Source of the DNA: a virus | Length of the DNA stretch: 22,205 nt | Reading direction: 5' to 3' (one strand) | IMG/VR virus record: IMGVR_UViG_3300009151_000444 | Location: 1-22,205 of that record | Shown: in pieces, positions 5,854-21,738 of the stretch | Numbering within the stretch: position 1 is the stretch's first letter | Layout of the letters: every line of letters starts with the position of its first letter | Position numbers and translations under genes: made by a program | The notes under the pieces: model-generated | What the model saw: the letters and a program-made list of their open reading frames with translations, nothing else | Told to the model about the DNA's origin: nothing | Databases searched by the model: none

Positions 5854-6359
5854 TGCAAATATTAACATTACAAAATGAAACATTTTTACTAAACAATTTA
5901 CCCGACGAGGTAGATGATTCTACAAGATTTGCAGTACTCGACAACAGCAATCCGCTAGACCCTGATTTCTTTTTCATGCCGCTGGTATTTCTTGAATCAT
6001 TTAATGCACCTGCAATGGTGTTAAGAATCGGCGAAGACGAAATAACCATGCCAATTGATTGGTGCGTAGCAGTAGGTGATAGTTTTACTGCTGCACATAT
6101 AGAAGTATTGCCGCTAACTAGTTTAAATGATAGAGGATTTGAAGCACTTACATTTAACCCTCTTTCGGACCACAGGATTGAATTTAAGAAAATTGAAATT
6201 GTTAACTTTTACAACGATGTTAAATGGTACTTTCCTAAAATGAAAAATGGCCATTTATTAGCAACGCCTACTCGTGCTGGATCACAGCCTACGTGTGCGT
6301 ATTTTGTAAAAGAAGTATCGAGACAAAGTGAATTAATTCATTTAGACAAATTACTATAA
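5853..6359 (+). CDS. hypothetical protein coupled to uvsW
   Basis: This 168-residue protein is not recognised. It starts MQILTLQNETFLLNNLPDE and has a strand-rich middle (IGEDEITMPIDWCVAVGD) and a central FNPLSDHRIEFKKIEIVN segment, which suggests a mostly beta fold. No signal peptide, membrane segment or catalytic motif is seen. The ATG overlaps the uvsW stop by one base (TAATG) and no strong ribosome site precedes it, so expression should depend on uvsW translation. That coupling suggests a related function, but this is context only. Confidence 0.8.
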   Translation: MQILTLQNETFLLNNLPDEVDDSTRFAVLDNSNPLDPDFFFMPLVFLESFNAPAMVLRIGEDEITMPIDWCVAVGDSFTAAHIEVLPLTSLNDRGFEALTFNPLSDHRIEFKKIEIVNFYNDVKWYFPKMKNGHLLATPTRAGSQPTCAYFVKEVSRQSELIHLDKLL

Positions 6360-6367
6360 GGATTTTT

Positions 6368-6994
6368 ATGGCTCTAAAAGTAGCATATTTTACACCAACT
6401 GTTATAGCGGCGGATCAAGTTCCGCCTGTTGAATTTAGTAACCTGTTTCAATTAACGCAAGAACTACACTTACACACTGAGCTAGCCGAAACAGAAAACC
6501 CGTTTGTTAATATCAAAGGCGGCCAACATATTCAAATCTTGCCTTGCAAAATTGAGTTAGAAATTACTTGGTTAACTACTTGGATTGAAAGCGTCTGCCA
6601 GTTGTACATGGATGTAATTACTGAACAATCAGGTGTAACTGATTTAAAACTTTGCAAACCTAAAGTTACAAGTATTTGGACAATTCGACAATCTGCAGGA
6701 GATTATCAACCTGTTCATAGCCACCTTGGGAGTAACATCAGCGGAAACATTTATATAACATCACCTGATTTTGATTCAGAACCTGATCCTTCAAATGGAA
6801 GAATAGAATTCAAGCTACCGCAGTTAAAGGATATTTCAAGATTTATAATGACAGATACGTGGAAAACTCGGCCCGAAGCAGGTACGTTTGTTATTTTTCC
6901 AAGTTGTTTACCCCATACTGTTTATCCGTGGACAGGCACAGGATTACGCACTGTAGTATCATTCGAAGCTGTGATTGTCCCAAATGAAGACTAA
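6368..6994 (+). CDS. putative 2OG-Fe(II) oxygenase-like protein
   Basis: The 208-residue protein resembles the phage 2-oxoglutarate/Fe(II)-dependent oxygenase-like family. The pattern is a double-stranded beta-helix region with QPVHSHLGSNISGNIYI (residues 114-130, candidate iron ligands H117 and H119), a GRIEF strand, then TFVIFPSCLPHTVYPW (173-188) with the distal histidine H183 and an arginine at 194 that would bind 2-oxoglutarate. Such enzymes hydroxylate proteins, nucleobases or small molecules; the phage substrate is unknown. AAGGA precedes the ATG, eight bases after the upstream stop. It ends the uvsW transcription block just before the gp62 promoter. Confidence 0.75.
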   Translation: MALKVAYFTPTVIAADQVPPVEFSNLFQLTQELHLHTELAETENPFVNIKGGQHIQILPCKIELEITWLTTWIESVCQLYMDVITEQSGVTDLKLCKPKVTSIWTIRQSAGDYQPVHSHLGSNISGNIYITSPDFDSEPDPSNGRIEFKLPQLKDISRFIMTDTWKTRPEAGTFVIFPSCLPHTVYPWTGTGLRTVVSFEAVIVPNED

Positions 6995-11868: not shown

Positions 11869-11978
11869 GAGATATTTGGTATATTATTTGCCACCCTATA
11901 AAGTGGTATCAAGAACGTCAAGCGTTTAAAAAACGGTTAGAAGAACTTCGTAAACGAGACCCATTTATTTACAAATGA
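11865..11978 (+). CDS. 37-residue basic peptide between gp61 and the carbamoyltransferase
   Basis: This short gene encodes a 37-residue basic peptide starting MRDIWYIICHPIKWYQ, with a helical charged middle (AFKKRLEELRKR) and ending DPFIYK. It overlaps the gp61 stop (ATGA at 11865) and the next ATG (ATGA at 11975), so it bridges both genes by translational coupling. AAGGAGA lies five bases before its ATG. Similar short peptides ending in DPFIY occur in T4-like phages, to my recollection. The function is unknown; the N terminus could associate with a membrane or a partner protein. Confidence 0.75.
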   Translation: MRDIWYIICHPIKWYQERQAFKKRLEELRKRDPFIYK

Positions 11979-13429
11979 TAGAATGGGGAATATCGGCTAA
12001 CAGCCACGATGCTGCTATTGCAGTATTTAAAGATAAAGAATTAGTGTTCGCTAGCCATAGCGAACGCTTTAGTGGTATAAAAAATGATCGAGATCTATGT
12101 ACTGAAATTGTCGAGTATGCAGAACAATGGGGTAAACCTGATCATATCTATTGGTATGAAAATCCGTACCTTAAAACAATTAGACAACTGCTAGCAGGCC
12201 AAGGGTGGAAATGGTCTGCGAACAATATCAAAGACTATCTAAAGCAATGGAATATCAATGCAAATATTACATATACTAACCATCATCTCAGCCATGCTGC
12301 TGCTGGATTTTATACTAGTCCATATTCTGAAGCATGCGTTGTAGTAGTCGACGCAATCGGTGAATTTGATACGCTAACAATATGGCACGCTAAAGATAAC
12401 ACACTTAAAAAAGTGTACAGTCAACGATACCCGCATAGTATCGGTCTTTGGTATTCTGCAATGACACAACGGGTTGGATTAAAGCCCAACGAAGACGAAT
12501 ACATATTAATGGGCATGGCTGCATATGGCGACGATCGGTATGCTGACCGTATATACACTGACTTTGTTAAAGATGAAAATTATACATTTTCGCAGAATTT
12601 ACATCGCGGTTGTTTAGATTGGGCACCTGATTTAACTATTACTGATAGTTTTGATATTGCAGCAGGTACTCAGGATGTGTATGAAACATTATTTTTATCA
12701 GTAATTAATCAAGCAAGCAAACTTGTAGATAGTAAAAATCTAGTGCTCATGGGCGGCTGTGCATTAAACTGCCACGCTAATAGATTAATAGGAAGATACT
12801 TTGAAAACATTTGGATTATGCCGAATCCGGGTGATGCAGGATCTGCAGTAGGTGCAGTGCTTGCGCATTACAAAAAACATATTCCTTTTGATCATGCGTT
12901 CCTTGGATATGATATTGCAAGTCAATCAAGTAATCGAGAGATTGTCGATTATTTGCTAGAGCATAATATATGTGGACTAGCGAGAGGCCGTGCGGAATAC
13001 GGTCCTCGTGCTTTAGGAAACAGAAGTTTACTTGCTGATCCTAGAGGCACAGACATTAAGGATAAAGTAAATGCAATCAAACATCGACAGGAATTTAGGC
13101 CGTTTGCGCCAGCAATACTTGAAGAATATGTCAATGACTATTTTGACATGCCTAGTAACTGGACTACTAGCAGATTTATGCAAACAACCGCTAAGTGTAA
13201 GTATCCCGTTCGTTTTCCTGCTATTGTACATCGGGACGGTACTAGCAGGGTACAAACTGTGCCGCGAGATGGATCACCTTTCAGACAGCTCTTAGAGCTA
13301 TGGTACGAACAAACAGGTTGCCCGATGTTGCTTAACACTAGCTTAAACATCAAAGGACAACCAATGGTAAACAATTTAGGTGATGCTCGGGCTTTTGAAA
13401 GCCATTACGGTGTTAAAGTTTTTAATTAG
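11975..13429 (+). CDS. NodU/CmcH-type carbamoyltransferase
   Basis: This 484-residue protein belongs to the carbamoyltransferase family, which uses carbamoyl phosphate and ATP to put a carbamoyl group on a hydroxyl of sugars or antibiotics. The N-terminal ASKHA-like domain begins with WGISANSHDAAIAV (residues 4-17). The metal-binding block NHHLSHAAAGFYTSPY (102-117) has H103, H104 and H107, and VVDAIGE (124-130) carries the matching Asp. MGGCALNCHANR follows around residue 260. The C-terminal YrdC-like part has GRAEYGPRALGNRSLLADPR near 340-360. It overlaps the 37-residue gene by four bases. The substrate is unknown; sugars on phage DNA or host surface glycans are both possible. Confidence 0.95.
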   Translation: MIEWGISANSHDAAIAVFKDKELVFASHSERFSGIKNDRDLCTEIVEYAEQWGKPDHIYWYENPYLKTIRQLLAGQGWKWSANNIKDYLKQWNINANITYTNHHLSHAAAGFYTSPYSEACVVVVDAIGEFDTLTIWHAKDNTLKKVYSQRYPHSIGLWYSAMTQRVGLKPNEDEYILMGMAAYGDDRYADRIYTDFVKDENYTFSQNLHRGCLDWAPDLTITDSFDIAAGTQDVYETLFLSVINQASKLVDSKNLVLMGGCALNCHANRLIGRYFENIWIMPNPGDAGSAVGAVLAHYKKHIPFDHAFLGYDIASQSSNREIVDYLLEHNICGLARGRAEYGPRALGNRSLLADPRGTDIKDKVNAIKHRQEFRPFAPAILEEYVNDYFDMPSNWTTSRFMQTTAKCKYPVRFPAIVHRDGTSRVQTVPRDGSPFRQLLELWYEQTGCPMLLNTSLNIKGQPMVNNLGDARAFESHYGVKVFN

Positions 13430-15667: not shown

Positions 15668-17482
15668 CTATGTGCTAGTTACTCTGGCACTCGGTCTAAC
15701 TGTAAATTCAGTTGATAAGAAAAATCCACCACGTTCGTCTAGTGCATCCATTACACGGCTTAATGCCTGTTGGCTGCTGTTACCGTAAACTCGCCAGACC
15801 CGTTCCGGATCATTGTTTAAAAAGACATCCCATTGCATGCGTTGACCTGGCTCTTCTGCACGCTGCGCAATAGGTCCTTGCAGCGGAGTATACGGATCAG
15901 GCGTATTACCTGCAACAGTTGTCTGTGTTCCTAGTTGCGCGGCTGCTGCTTTTGCACCTTGCTTTGCTTGGAACTTCTGACGCAGAATACTTATCATCTT
16001 TTCTTTCGGTAAGTCACCTGCTGTATACTTTGCAAACAAGTTAACAGTGTCGTCATTGCTGTCTAATGGTGCGATTAACTTGTACAATTTTTTAGAATAC
16101 TCTTGTTTGTGTGCAGATTCGTCACAGGCAATCTTCAGTGCCATGGCTAGTCGCAGTGCAGTATCACACAATGCTTCTGGTGTTTTAGATAGGTAATCAC
16201 CGCCCGGTCCACGGAACTCAACATAACCGGATTTAGTATTAATACTAGTGTACTTGTTAGTAATACCATCATGGATGATTTTACTTGCAGTAGTGTTTAG
16301 CTGCGAACGCATTCTTTGCAACACTTGTTCGACTCTACTATAACCTGCGTTATTGACAATTTGCTGAGTTGCACTTTTACAATATGAGTTACTTGCACGT
16401 CCGAATTGATCGAGAATATATTCATCCCCCATGAACAATGCTAGTTTGATGTAGTCTAAATTTGCCAGTGAAAAGTCAGGAACACTGACATTTATGTGCA
16501 AGCCAGTTGATGAATTTGTGGTACAGCCTCGTCGTTTAGCCCATGCCATTAATTTTTTAAGTTGAGCAAATGTTGTAGCGATAGGTTGTGCAGGACTAAT
16601 GAATTCTAAACCCACTTGGCCCTTGCTAACATCAGCACTGATACTACCATCTGGTTCAATAAGCCATTTGCCTGATTCACGCTTTGCACTGTGATAACTT
16701 CCACCGAAATTAACATCGACCCTGCCGATGCCAATTGCATCCGCAAACTCGGCTGCAAGCTCGCCAAGGTCTACTTCACTGTCTGGCTCAGTTACATATC
16801 CCCAATTGAATATATCATCCCAGTGTCTTTCTGCATCTGATGCAAAACGAACACCTAGGCTACGCAACCAATCTCTTTCGTTAAAAAAATCCCGGTATTC
16901 ATCATAAAGGCTATCGTTGACTCGATCACGAGCATCGAGGTACTCGTCGCTGTCCTGAGCATCCATTAATTCTTCAATGTCTTGATCACGTATTTCTTTG
17001 GCACGATCATCAACAGAATCAGAATCAATTTCACCTGCAGCAGCTTCTTCTTGGGCACGTTCTAGCGCAATATCAAAGTCATAGTCTCCTTCTAGTATAG
17101 CACGTATACGGTCATAGACAGTGTCATAGTTTTGATCTATTTCATCATTGACTTGCTCGTTAGCCCATTCGTAGTATTCTTCTTCCAATTGATTGCGTGC
17201 GAGATTACTTTCATTACCACCCAATGTGGTCATATCCCCACCTTCGAAGAATTCAATGATGGCATCAATGTCATCGACATTAGTATCATACTCGTAGTCA
17301 GGTTCTCGTCCCTCGTCACTGCTTTCAATATGAGCATCAGGTACAACCATTTCAAACTCGATGCCCATCAAGATTCCTTGAGCATCAGGTCCAGAAGCCC
17401 ACCGCTGAAGTGATCCAGGCTTCATTGAAACTTCACTTAGTATAGCAGGGACTAGTGGATATTTAAATTCGTTATAACGCAT
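15668..17482 (-). CDS. amidoligase-family (COOH-NH2 ligase) protein
   Basis: The 604-residue protein carries the signature blocks of the amidoligase family, ATP-dependent COOH-amine ligases related to glutamine synthetase: GIEFEM (residues 40-45), WLIEPDGSI (273-281), GLEFISPA (291-298), TGLHINVSV (326-334), YTSIN (411-415) and EFRGPGGDYL (422-431). A strongly acidic, helical insert occupies roughly residues 50-215 between the first two blocks. A C-terminal domain of about 70 residues (MQWDVFLNNDPERVWRVYG) is separate from the catalytic core. It should join an amine to a carboxylate on an unknown substrate. The ATG at 17482 has only a weak GGAAA upstream. A late-type AATAAATA box at 17511 suggests the enzyme is made late, possibly for the virion or cell envelope. 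Confidence 0.85.
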   Translation of the reverse strand: MRYNEFKYPLVPAILSEVSMKPGSLQRWASGPDAQGILMGIEFEMVVPDAHIESSDEGREPDYEYDTNVDDIDAIIEFFEGGDMTTLGGNESNLARNQLEEEYYEWANEQVNDEIDQNYDTVYDRIRAILEGDYDFDIALERAQEEAAAGEIDSDSVDDRAKEIRDQDIEELMDAQDSDEYLDARDRVNDSLYDEYRDFFNERDWLRSLGVRFASDAERHWDDIFNWGYVTEPDSEVDLGELAAEFADAIGIGRVDVNFGGSYHSAKRESGKWLIEPDGSISADVSKGQVGLEFISPAQPIATTFAQLKKLMAWAKRRGCTTNSSTGLHINVSVPDFSLANLDYIKLALFMGDEYILDQFGRASNSYCKSATQQIVNNAGYSRVEQVLQRMRSQLNTTASKIIHDGITNKYTSINTKSGYVEFRGPGGDYLSKTPEALCDTALRLAMALKIACDESAHKQEYSKKLYKLIAPLDSNDDTVNLFAKYTAGDLPKEKMISILRQKFQAKQGAKAAAAQLGTQTTVAGNTPDPYTPLQGPIAQRAEEPGQRMQWDVFLNNDPERVWRVYGNSSQQALSRVMDALDERGGFFLSTEFTVRPSARVTST

Positions 17483-18597: not shown

Positions 18598-18613
18598 GAT
18601 GTGCTCCTGTTGC

Positions 18614-19523: not shown

Positions 19524-19532
19524 AGTGTGCTC

Positions 19533-19823
19533 CTAGTCTAAACCAATGAAACCAATGCGCTTGCCTTTGAGTGTAAAGAAGCAAGCAAATCGCTGTCCTT
19601 CGTGTCCTGACTCCTCTGTGGCCGTGGCGTAGATTCGAATCTCAGTGTTCGGGCCACGTTCGATTACTTCAGGTGTGTCCAAGGTAACCAAACCATTGTA
19701 AGGTAGGTATTCATCACGGATCTTCAACTTCTGGAATCCAACCATTACATGACGACCCGGAATTGATTTAGGTTTTTCTGGCTTAGACTTTACTGCTGGT
19801 GTACTGCTTGGAAACGATGCCAT
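19533..19823 (-). CDS. hypothetical early protein, 96 residues
   Basis: A Ser/Pro/Lys-rich N-terminal tail of about 22 residues (MASFPSSTPAVKSKPEKPK) is followed by a beta-rich body (HVMVGFQKLKIRDEYLPYNG; TEIRIYATATEE; RFACFFTLKGKRIGFIGLD). No family is recognised. AGGAGC lies six bases before the ATG at 19823. The gene sits in the middle of the small-gene operon. Confidence 0.75.
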   Translation of the reverse strand: MASFPSSTPAVKSKPEKPKSIPGRHVMVGFQKLKIRDEYLPYNGLVTLDTPEVIERGPNTEIRIYATATEESGHEGQRFACFFTLKGKRIGFIGLD

Positions 19824-19832
19824 TGTTTGCTC

Positions 19833-20012
19833 CTATAGTATTAAGACTGGTGTGTTCTTGTACAGGTATTGTGATCCAGCTAAGGTTCTGATCTCAGTTA
19901 GATCGACTACATCATACTTGGCCAGCAAGTCGATATCGCCTGTGGTTAATGATACATGGTTTGGTGTGCCTGCTTCAATAGCCGCGTCGGCTGCATCAAT
20001 TCTCGGTGTCAT
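19833..20012 (-). CDS. hypothetical early protein, 59 residues
   Basis: A 59-residue acidic protein starting MTPRIDAADAAIEAGTPNHV, followed by LTTGDIDLLAKYDVVDLTEI. No family is recognised. CAGGAGC lies seven bases before the ATG at 20012; the frame extends upstream to an ATG at 20042, but that version overlaps the previous gene by 47 bases and lacks a ribosome site. The chosen start still overlaps the 72-residue gene by 17 bases. Confidence 0.7.
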   Translation of the reverse strand: MTPRIDAADAAIEAGTPNHVSLTTGDIDLLAKYDVVDLTEIRTLAGSQYLYKNTPVLIL

Positions 20013-20214
20013 TTGGTGCTCCTGTTGGTAACTTGAAATCAAAGGTAGGGTCGTGTTCGACTCTGGTTATAGTGTATTTGGCGGTGTCGTGTTCTGACCA
20101 GAACCATTCGCGGGCCTTTGCTTCGTCACCGCTAAAGTATCTGATCCAATCACTGCCATCACTGTCGTACTCTTGAAAGGTTACGATGTATGCGTTGAAA
20201 GGATCGAATGCCAT
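19996..20214 (-). CDS. hypothetical early protein, 72 residues
   Basis: An acidic protein rich in aromatic residues, starting MAFDPFNAYIVTFQEYDSDG and containing DEAKAREWFWSEHD, a likely amphipathic helix. No family is recognised. Its ATG overlaps the stop of the 54-residue gene (TAATG) and has no clear ribosome site, so it should be translated by coupling. Confidence 0.75.
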   Translation of the reverse strand: MAFDPFNAYIVTFQEYDSDGSDWIRYFSGDEAKAREWFWSEHDTAKYTITRVEHDPTFDFKLPTGAPNDTEN

Positions 20215-20476: not shown

Positions 20477-20503
20477 AGGTTGCTCCTTTGTTGTTATGTG
20501 CGT

Positions 20504-20555: not shown

Positions 20556-20600
20556 AAAAAAAAGCCCAGTTATTCCAGGAGCGATTTGGAATGACTAGGC
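20556..20600 (-). terminator. intrinsic terminator with U8 tail, last hairpin of the array
   Basis: GCCCAGTTATTCC (20564-20576) pairs with GGAATGACTAGGC (20588-20600) with one mismatch and one G-U pair. Read on the minus strand the stem is followed by TTTTTTTT (20563-20556). It ends transcription coming from the AAA ATPase gene and also exposes the conserved array loop. Confidence 0.85.
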
Positions 20601-20795
20601 CGGATTAAAAGTAGAGTCGACTGTGTGTCACGGGAGCGATTCGATCGCACTGTTTATCTACATCAAAGCATCTAACATCATGGGAGCGATTCAATCCATT
20701 AGATGCTCTGCTTGTTGGTTCAATTGTCTCGGGAGCGATTCGATTGATTGGACCTTGTGGTTGATCGGATTAGGAGCGAATTAATCCAACCAACC
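20564..20795 (-). ncRNA. five tandem hairpins with one conserved loop, 3' UTR or small RNA
   Basis: The conserved segment (GGAGCGATT on the + strand) occurs at 20578, 20633, 20683, 20732 and 20773 (the last GGAGCGAATT), 41-55 bases apart. Each sits in the loop of a hairpin whose stem differs in sequence. Stems: 20564-20576 with 20588-20600; 20620-20627 with 20646-20653 (plus 20611-20615 with 20657-20661); 20667-20675 with 20699-20707; 20717-20724 with 20747-20754; 20759-20771 with 20783-20795. The array follows the AAA ATPase stop on the minus strand and ends in a U8 terminator, so it is probably transcribed on that strand with loops AATCGCTCCY. These loops can pair with the AGGAGC ribosome sites of the early genes. 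The function is inferred. Confidence 0.8.
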
Positions 20796-20812
20796 TGTAT
20801 GCTGATAATTTA

Positions 20813-21676
20813 TTATCGTATTCCTCGCATACATGTGATTCGGGCTACATCTTCCCAACTGTTTGGCATTGACTTACGCAAGTCAGCTACCTTTAATACC
20901 ATACGCAAGCTTAACTCGCGCATCTTATCTTTGTTCTTGGCTACGAATGAAACCACTTCCAACTTTTCTTCTTCAGTAAACTCATAGCTGTCCAACATAC
21001 CATCGTTGACTATTTGCTGTATGCGCAACATCTTTTCGCGATCAGTGTCAATGGTCAAGTCCAGATAGTGGCAACGTGATTCTAATGCTTCTAAGTGATC
21101 TTTGAGTTTCTTACTGCGTACATGCTCGAAGTTGATGTTGGTAATGAATATGCAACCACCCATAAACTCGAAGCTGTTTGGCAAGTTTAATGCCTTCAAT
21201 GACTTAGAATCAGTGTTCCAACTAATCACTCTGCGCTTGCTACTATCTAGAGCTGCCTTGAGTATGTTCAGACTAACATCGTCCAACAGGATGCTGTCAC
21301 AGTCATCAAACACTACAATACATTTCTTTTCAGAAAACTCAAATAACTTCTTGTATAATCCCAGCGCACTCATTGCGCCTTTGACTACTTCATACTTCTT
21401 TAGCTTGTCGTCCTGTGCAATGGTTGCAAACAAATCATGTCTGCTCAACACTTGCTCAACACCAAAACTCTTACCAACTCCTGGAGGTCCAGTGACTATC
21501 ATTGCACGCACATCGCCTTTCTTGACTGCTCTGGTCATATCGTTTAACACGTTGAATCGATATCTTAATCGTTCAATAATTTCTTCGTCTGTTTCGTTGC
21601 TTATTGGCATAACTGGCTCTGGGCGTGTTGATGTTAATTGGTTTAACATTTCTAATGTAATTACTTGCTTTGACAT
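20813..21676 (-). CDS. AAA-family ATPase
   Basis: This 287-residue protein has a P-loop ATPase core: Walker A GPPGVGKS (residues 63-70), Walker B VVFDDCDS (121-128), a likely sensor segment CIFITNINFEHV and an arginine-containing ESRCHYLDL. The N-terminal 40 residues are polar, and the C terminus is helical (ELSLRMVLKVADLRKSMP) like AAA lid domains. Similar single-domain ATPases are common early phage genes; the remodelled substrate is unknown. TAGGAGCGC lies nine bases before the ATG at 21676. It has a perfect consensus promoter and a leader of about 30 bases, and is followed by the hairpin array. Confidence 0.9.
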   Translation of the reverse strand: MSKQVITLEMLNQLTSTRPEPVMPISNETDEEIIERLRYRFNVLNDMTRAVKKGDVRAMIVTGPPGVGKSFGVEQVLSRHDLFATIAQDDKLKKYEVVKGAMSALGLYKKLFEFSEKKCIVVFDDCDSILLDDVSLNILKAALDSSKRRVISWNTDSKSLKALNLPNSFEFMGGCIFITNINFEHVRSKKLKDHLEALESRCHYLDLTIDTDREKMLRIQQIVNDGMLDSYEFTEEEKLEVVSFVAKNKDKMRELSLRMVLKVADLRKSMPNSWEDVARITCMRGIR

Positions 21677-21709
21677 GGTGTTGCGCTCCTACAATTAATT
21701 AAAAAACTT

Positions 21710-21738
21710 ATTATACAACATCCATGTCAGTGTGTCAA
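21710..21738 (-). promoter_or_regulatory. consensus sigma70 promoter of the AAA ATPase gene
   Basis: TTGACA, 17 bases and TATAAT on the minus strand are a perfect match, starting nine bases after the stop of the 66-residue membrane gene. The leader is AU-rich (AAGTTTTTTAATTAATTG) and ends in TAGGAGCGC. Confidence 0.93.

Follow-up and report, generated by a model that had tools for sequence, protein, structure and literature searches.

The hairpins found directly behind the stop codon of an AAA ATPase gene in an uncultured virus form a conserved RNA-level element on the ATPase strand, and their loops vary together with the ribosome sites of early genes between phage groups; both statements are supported by sequence comparison. 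The array is likely to be a 3'UTR-borne multi-loop anti-Shine-Dalgarno RNA which binds early mRNAs and probably represses them, repression, pairing in vivo and the release of a small RNA being inferred.

The window, i.e. the whole 22.2-kb fragment of viral DNA analyzed, is itself a record of the virus collection searched. Its genes encode UvsX/RecA-like, UvsW-like, DnaB-like helicase, Toprim and gp32-like proteins, and a T4-related myovirus is therefore the likely source, as far as gene content tells. The helicase has its nearest match (51%) in Pseudomonas PA5oct-like jumbo phages. A carbamoyltransferase gene of the NodU/CmcH type (11975-13429, plus strand) lies within the phage replication gene cluster, and the stretch 15668-17482 on the minus strand encodes a protein of 604 aa that contains an Amidoligase_2 domain (Pfam PF12224, E=8e-11) and matches no PHROG. 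The ATPase belongs to the NrdC.10 family of T4-like phages, a homologue being annotated nrdC.10 in Acinetobacter phages. A promoter of the form TTGACA-N17-TATAAT, recognized by consensus match only, lies immediately upstream of the gene, and the array occupies its 3' UTR. The features of this gene are:

21733..21738, minus strand, -35 box TTGACA of the ATPase's own sigma-70 type promoter (consensus match only)
21710..21715, minus strand, -10 box TATAAT of that promoter, with transcription expected to start near 21703
21684..21690, minus strand, extended ribosome-binding site AGGAGCG of the ATPase, GGAGCG being complementary to the loop core CGCUCC
20813..21676, minus strand, AAA ATPase, 287 aa (PHROG 1250, E=5e-81; Pfam AAA above cut-off)

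On the plus strand, exact copies of GGAGCGATT start at 20578, 20633, 20683 and 20732, and GGAGCGAAT is found at 20773. Four exact copies are thus packed inside about 165 nt, and the number of repeats exceeds chance, eight matches with at most one mismatch being found in the window vs. 2.4 expected, a figure reached in 0/100 shuffles. All five copies correspond to 9-nt loops, A(A/U)UCGCUCC, in the minus-strand RNA. The window copies have in common only the loop and a few closing bases, the stems being unrelated. According to constrained energies three hairpins are strong, one is moderate and one weak. In transcription order, the array comprises:

20759..20795, minus strand, hairpin 1, 14-bp stem, loop AUUCGCUCC at 20781-20773, constrained MFE -18.7 kcal/mol, strong
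20717..20754, minus strand, hairpin 2, interrupted stem, loop AAUCGCUCC at 20740-20732, constrained MFE -6.7 kcal/mol, moderate
20668..20706, minus strand, hairpin 3, loop AAUCGCUCC at 20691-20683, constrained MFE -17.2 kcal/mol, strong
20620..20653, minus strand, hairpin 4, weak stem, loop AAUCGCUCC at 20641-20633, constrained MFE only -5.1 kcal/mol
20564..20599, minus strand, hairpin 5, the terminator stem, loop AAUCGCUCC at 20586-20578, constrained MFE -18.3 kcal/mol, strong
20556..20563, minus strand, U8 tract of the intrinsic terminator, expected transcript end

Hairpin 3 is made up of two closing pairs, an internal loop and an outer stem of about 12 bp. The loop of hairpin 4 competes in the MFE fold with a 5-bp GCGAU/AUCGC hairpin. 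Hairpin 5 and the U8 tract (20563-20556) are predicted, from sequence alone, to make up a good minus-strand intrinsic terminator. The first-pass annotation had described five recurring loop-borne motif copies on the minus strand behind the ATPase, ending in U8, and this held; its further claim that the motif always resides in a hairpin loop held in part, being right for four copies and doubtful for the one at 20641. The array is neither a CRISPR nor an integron attC site, as conserved full-length repeats and attC architecture are both missing. No Rfam family matched the window above gathering score, and at a relative locus (L117) only a tRNA was found up to E=1.

The strand of the RNA is set by the U-tracts. 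In the 80 loci of close relatives described below, T5 follows the last loop in 74, while A5 precedes the first loop in one only, and the array RNA is therefore assigned to the ATPase sense strand. The unconstrained fold of the window points the same way, the minus strand giving z = -3.3 (0/200 shuffles equally stable) and the plus strand z = -1.6. Other measures are neutral: G-U pair counts fail to separate the strands (192 vs. 194), and antisense hairpins fold about equally well under constraint.

Relatives were collected in several ways. An initial pattern scan was too loose, nearly all matches being coding repeats, and the true relative L117, featuring the same ATPase followed by three such hairpins, was picked out by stem checks; a stricter pattern search gave two further relatives. 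An alignment search of IMG/VR with the ATPase gave 560 relatives in all, of which the best 80 (66-76% identity) were kept. TCGCTCC is found in the ATPase 3' region of 80/80 of these closest relatives, in 157 copies total. In a set of 166 non-redundant hairpins, chosen by loop and two closing pairs only, the arms vary around constant loop bases A-x-UCGCUCC. The mean constrained energy of this set is -14.6 kcal/mol, and exchanging 3' arms among its members weakens it to -6.35. The most frequent of the upstream classes, with 38 sequences which could be aligned without gaps, shows 304/304 cells paired and no broken pair, with double changes at all six outer-stem pairs; double-change cells number 81, vs. 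25 in shuffles, and only 19-40% of cells are paired when the partner is slid by 1-3 columns. Stems kept in sequence but not in pairing among related phages had been named in advance as an outcome that would refute the proposal; the opposite was seen, pairing being kept and stem sequence changed.

One version of the motif, TAARYCCGATTCGCTCCCGG, has no exact match in the genomes of 84,980 bacterial and archaeal species, and occurs in at least 120 stretches of viral contigs. Of 119 such sites examined, 98 follow the ATPase, 29-169 nt behind it; some of the remaining ones have too little upstream sequence. Eleven inspected non-ATPase sites with full upstream sequence lie at the end of a reading frame for a small protein (about 103 aa, MATDKKFAVAGVST...KTKVRFANDVMRIKILAKNGH...), one hairpin of this type overlapping its stop codon (L234 3157-3468, in reverse-complement numbering, and L263, L266, L277, L296, L309, L314, L318, L346, L348 and L349). 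The UAA stop of this protein sits inside the internal loop of the hairpin in several loci, and no PHROG match was found for it. L117 carries a fourth loop hairpin away from the ATPase, at 6452 on the plus strand (loop AUUCGCUCC, -15.2 kcal/mol), some 60 nt past the end of the tRNA gene that occupies 6309-6390. A scan of the 185-kb contig G012 revealed only two loop hairpins, both behind the ATPase.

Two architectures recur in the hairpins of loci L146-L351, one with a UAA-R-Y bulge ahead of CCG-loop-CGG, the other with CCAA/GYAA around CG-loop-CG. In the former, the identity of R seems linked to that of the base following CGG (A going with U, G with C). These recurrent internal loops may mark a protein or a tertiary contact, a possibility no more than that.

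Among isolates, the array region gave no blastn match to 50,697 phage records, none of which has an ATPase at least 60% identical, so that a sequenced isolate bearing the array did not turn up. In PA5oct, whose helicase (51%) is the closest among isolates, the ATPase is followed merely by a simple hairpin, and the ribosome sites there are ordinary. The PA5oct region 246116-246734 (L452 6117-6735), upstream of the operon of the ATPase homologue, is annotated as a putative lncRNA from RNA-seq; no loop array was seen in it.

The sequence exposed by the loops is complementary to an extended ribosome site. All six minus-strand AGGAGC in the window precede an ATG by 11-14 nt; the initial claim of seven genes so equipped is thus corrected to six starts. 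Besides the ATPase, the candidate targets are:

20482..20487, minus strand, AGGAGC ribosome site of a small downstream ORF
20018..20023, minus strand, AGGAGC ribosome site
19829..19834, minus strand, AGGAGC ribosome site
19529..19534, minus strand, AGGAGC ribosome site
18603..18608, minus strand, AGGAGC ribosome site of a gene with its own TTGACA/TATACT promoter

Within the window only 5-7 base pairs form between the loop and the visible genes, and the loop is not clearly better than permuted loops (matched by 15/721 permutations, and by 6/59 of those keeping CUCC). Upstream of the ATPase only 529 nt of contig are left, and it is there that the target block begins in relatives; most of the target block of this phage probably lies beyond the contig end. 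In relatives, GGAGCGAA, the complement of the loop, is found ahead of many early genes clustered upstream of the array. At ribosome sites of array loci, GGAG continues as CGA in 41% of the 888 distinct upstream sequences, vs. 3.2% (out of 502) for other viral contigs. Counts of the complete GGAGCGA...ATG site in large contigs reach 14 (0-2 in the control), and in most large group-1 contigs tested (e.g. G006, G007, G012-G015 and G019; groups are defined below) the sites cluster on the same strand in the 10-12 kb or so upstream of the array. Four of 14 large group-1 contigs (G009, G011, G017 and G018, the contigs of loci L218, L202, L201 and L194) show no cluster and few scattered complementary sites; these contigs carry the loop array despite the paucity of GGAGCGA...ATG sites.

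In G012, the block ahead of the array has GGAGCGA sites before 14/39 genes, the remainder of the genome before 2/192 (Fisher p ~1e-10). The mean loop-site duplex energy in the block (-9.13) is matched by 7/682 permutations and by 0/59 of those keeping CUCC. No signal is found in the rest of the genome, where 29/59 CUCC-keeping permutations are as low. A G012 target gene typically has a sigma-70-like promoter to itself, located 20-25 nt ahead of the site, and GGAGC is present at 21/21 promoter-linked starts in the block. The p-values assume independence of the sites and are indicative only, and the label 'early' rests on promoters, small size and position of the genes, no expression data being at hand. 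The claim that minus-strand loops pair with early ribosome sites is thus supported by comparison, the loop beating permuted loops in the 185-kb relative, while the signal inside the window is weak.

The 80 close ATPase relatives (group 1) were compared to a more distant ATPase group (group 2, L363 and relatives) and to relatives lacking the array. Loops carry TCGCTCC in 80/80 group-1 loci and GCCCTC in 64/65 group-2 loci, and neither is found in 15/15 array-less relatives; none of the group-2 loci has TCGCTCC loops, GCCCUC being carried instead. Early ribosome sites of group 2 read GAGGGCAA. Out of 631 ribosome-site windows in group 1, 230 contain GGAGCG and one GAGGGC; the corresponding numbers are 15 and 344 out of 1052 in group 2, and zero and zero out of 104 in the array-less group. 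Most of the large group-2 contigs tested have their GAGGGCA sites clustered close to the ATPase; G037 has only one such site. On L363, the own group-2 loop scores -11.94, a value matched by 0/752 permutations. Swapped loops do no better than permuted ones, the group-1 loop on L363 being matched by 300/682 and the group-2 loop on G012 by 120/752 permutations; L005 taken alone is not significant (54/590). Sequences within a group are related and the groups may differ by a single switch, so that independent loop/site switches may be few, perhaps one, though each genome changes many sites.

The mechanism may be pictured as follows. A sigma-70-like promoter would drive the ATPase gene, and transcription would run through one to five hairpins, usually stopping at the last. 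Each loop would offer the unpaired complement of an extended ribosome-binding site (GGAGCGAA here, GAGGGCAA in the sister group) common to some 10-20 early genes of the same phage, most with an early promoter of their own. Loop-site pairing would keep the 30S subunit off early mRNAs, that of the ATPase included, or lead to their decay, the outcome being negative feedback or early-gene shut-off. RNA structure, strand, loop-site complementarity and co-variation are supported by comparison. Pairing in vivo, release of the RNA or action from the mRNA, action in trans and repression are inferred, with no transcript, processing or repression data, the phages being uncultured; the trans repression of early translation originally suggested remains in this category, resting on sequence comparison only. 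Repression is preferred because pairing at the ribosome site inhibits translation in the anti-SD sRNAs studied (PMC3927594). The conserved internal loops (UAA-R-Y; CCAA/GYAA) are not accounted for by loop pairing alone, and might conceivably bind a protein. A bolder reading, towards which we lean by a narrow margin, is that of a private Shine-Dalgarno code: early sites differ from those of other genes, the array loops are their exact complement, one RNA shuts the whole early regulon, and the code has been switched at least once between groups, loops and many early sites changing together.

Other explanations were weighed against repression. Pairing could be real, yet activating or protecting, the loops shielding the GGAG of early leaders from an endonuclease, or opening a structured leader, to keep early genes on longer. 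Complementarity and co-variation fit protection as well as repression, and the T4 RegB nuclease does cut the GGAG of early ribosome sites (PMC3014915); against this, the loop covers the ribosome site itself, an arrangement inhibitory in characterised anti-SD sRNAs (PMC3927594), and the leaders, with only about 20-25 nt between promoter and site, leave little room for inhibitory structure, so that protection appears unlikely. Also improbable is a purely local autoregulation, in which loops pair with the ATPase's own site and other genes share that site through copied promoter-leader cassettes. The ATPase itself has AGGAGCG and the leaders do resemble repeated cassettes, but at least seven other genes with their own promoters keep the full GGAGCGA(A) or GAGGGCA in many genomes, in some of which they match better than the ATPase's site does (GGAGCGU in G012, for example), and single hairpins are also found behind another small gene.

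A phage or host protein recognizing the invariant loop, the likeness to a ribosome-site complement being secondary, would fit the high conservation of the internal loops and of loop positions outside the seven core bases. Yet in group 2 the loop is exchanged for one that complements the different ribosome site of that group, and both motifs are absent from the array-less group; one would not expect a protein site to follow early ribosome sites in reverse complement, and this hypothesis is accordingly given very little weight. Less credible still are tandem terminators or 3'-end stabilisers devoid of a regulatory loop: the last hairpin is usually a terminator, but the invariant loop on variable stems and the match to ribosome sites are left unexplained. 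The opposite-strand reading, by which GGA-presenting loops would sponge CsrA or mimic ribosome sites, is all but excluded. Plus-strand loops read GGAGCGAAU, and antisense hairpins fold comparably under constraint; the U-tracts, however, lie on the ATPase-sense side (74/80 vs. 1/80), the unconstrained window fold prefers the minus strand, and group-2 loops on that opposite strand read GAGGGC, with no GGA in the core. A CsrA-sponge alternative raised at the outset is thus without support, and the hallmark of CsrA/RsmE sponges of the CsrB, RsmY and RsmZ type, GGA in loops of the transcribed strand, is not met, this strand showing CGCUCC. 16S rRNA has a GGAGCRAA stretch near position 775; pairing with it was set aside, unprobed, because the loop tracks ribosome sites between groups.

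If repression by the array is true, a large T4-related phage lineage controls early genes by RNA, instead of or besides RegA/RegB-type proteins, having given them a shared, addressable ribosome site, and a phage-encoded anti-Shine-Dalgarno RNA has many simultaneous targets. With their matched changes of loop and site, the two phage groups amount to a compensatory experiment of nature, which makes the mechanism directly testable with simple reporters. The pair formed by a loop and its matching ribosome site would also be a sequence handle for phage RNA regulators lacking homology.

A phage array of this kind was not found in the open-licence literature searched. T4 RegB and RegA down-regulate early genes post-transcriptionally at the ribosome site, as proposed for the array, but are proteins, RegB cutting GGAG in early SDs, and no trans-acting regulatory RNA has been characterised in T4 according to the same review (PMC3014915). 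The array as a RegA replacement was considered and rejected: none of the 32 contigs searched, array-bearing or not, gave a RegA match, and 3/3 control phages did; since array-less relatives also lack RegA, its absence does not track the array. The c4 antisense RNA of phages P1 and P7 is a phage RNA blocking a phage ribosome site, its complementary parts probably residing in loops (PMC12197685); it has one target (ant) and an immunity function, and not a multi-gene early regulon. RNAIII of Staphylococcus aureus and other sRNAs use C-rich hairpin loops to bind ribosome sites on a number of mRNAs. RNAIII, though, is a single large regulatory RNA, the effector of quorum sensing, without a tandem array or a matched early regulon.

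The closest analogues are the rhizobial SmelA075/SmelA099 RNAs and the CcsR RNAs, which are not homologous to the array as far as tested: the loop A(A/U)UCGCUCC is not CCUCCUCCC, and neither the window nor L117 revealed a relation to them through Rfam. CcsR1-4 of Rhodobacter sphaeroides (PMC8625941) are tandem RNAs processed from the 3' UTR of a coding mRNA, ccaF1, and share with the array this location; the host gene encodes a small RNA-binding protein in one case, an AAA ATPase in the other, and processing of the phage RNA has not been shown. SmelA075/SmelA099 and their Rhodobacter counterpart RS0680a form a like array, with the same anti-Shine-Dalgarno motif in every loop and variable stems (PMC3927594). 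Members of the family have two to four hairpins, the number of modules varying, and have been proposed to block the ribosome sites of several mRNAs (Genes 2011, PMC3927594). The array shares with such multi-hairpin anti-SD RNAs the presence of at least two hairpins, the same loop motif and variable stems; loop complementarity to target ribosome sites is met in relatives and weak in the window alone. SmelA075/SmelA099 are bacterial and stress-induced, and their loop, CCUCCUCCC, is a general anti-SD; the phage loops, in contrast, fit the special extended site of the phage's own early genes, and do so in two matching versions.
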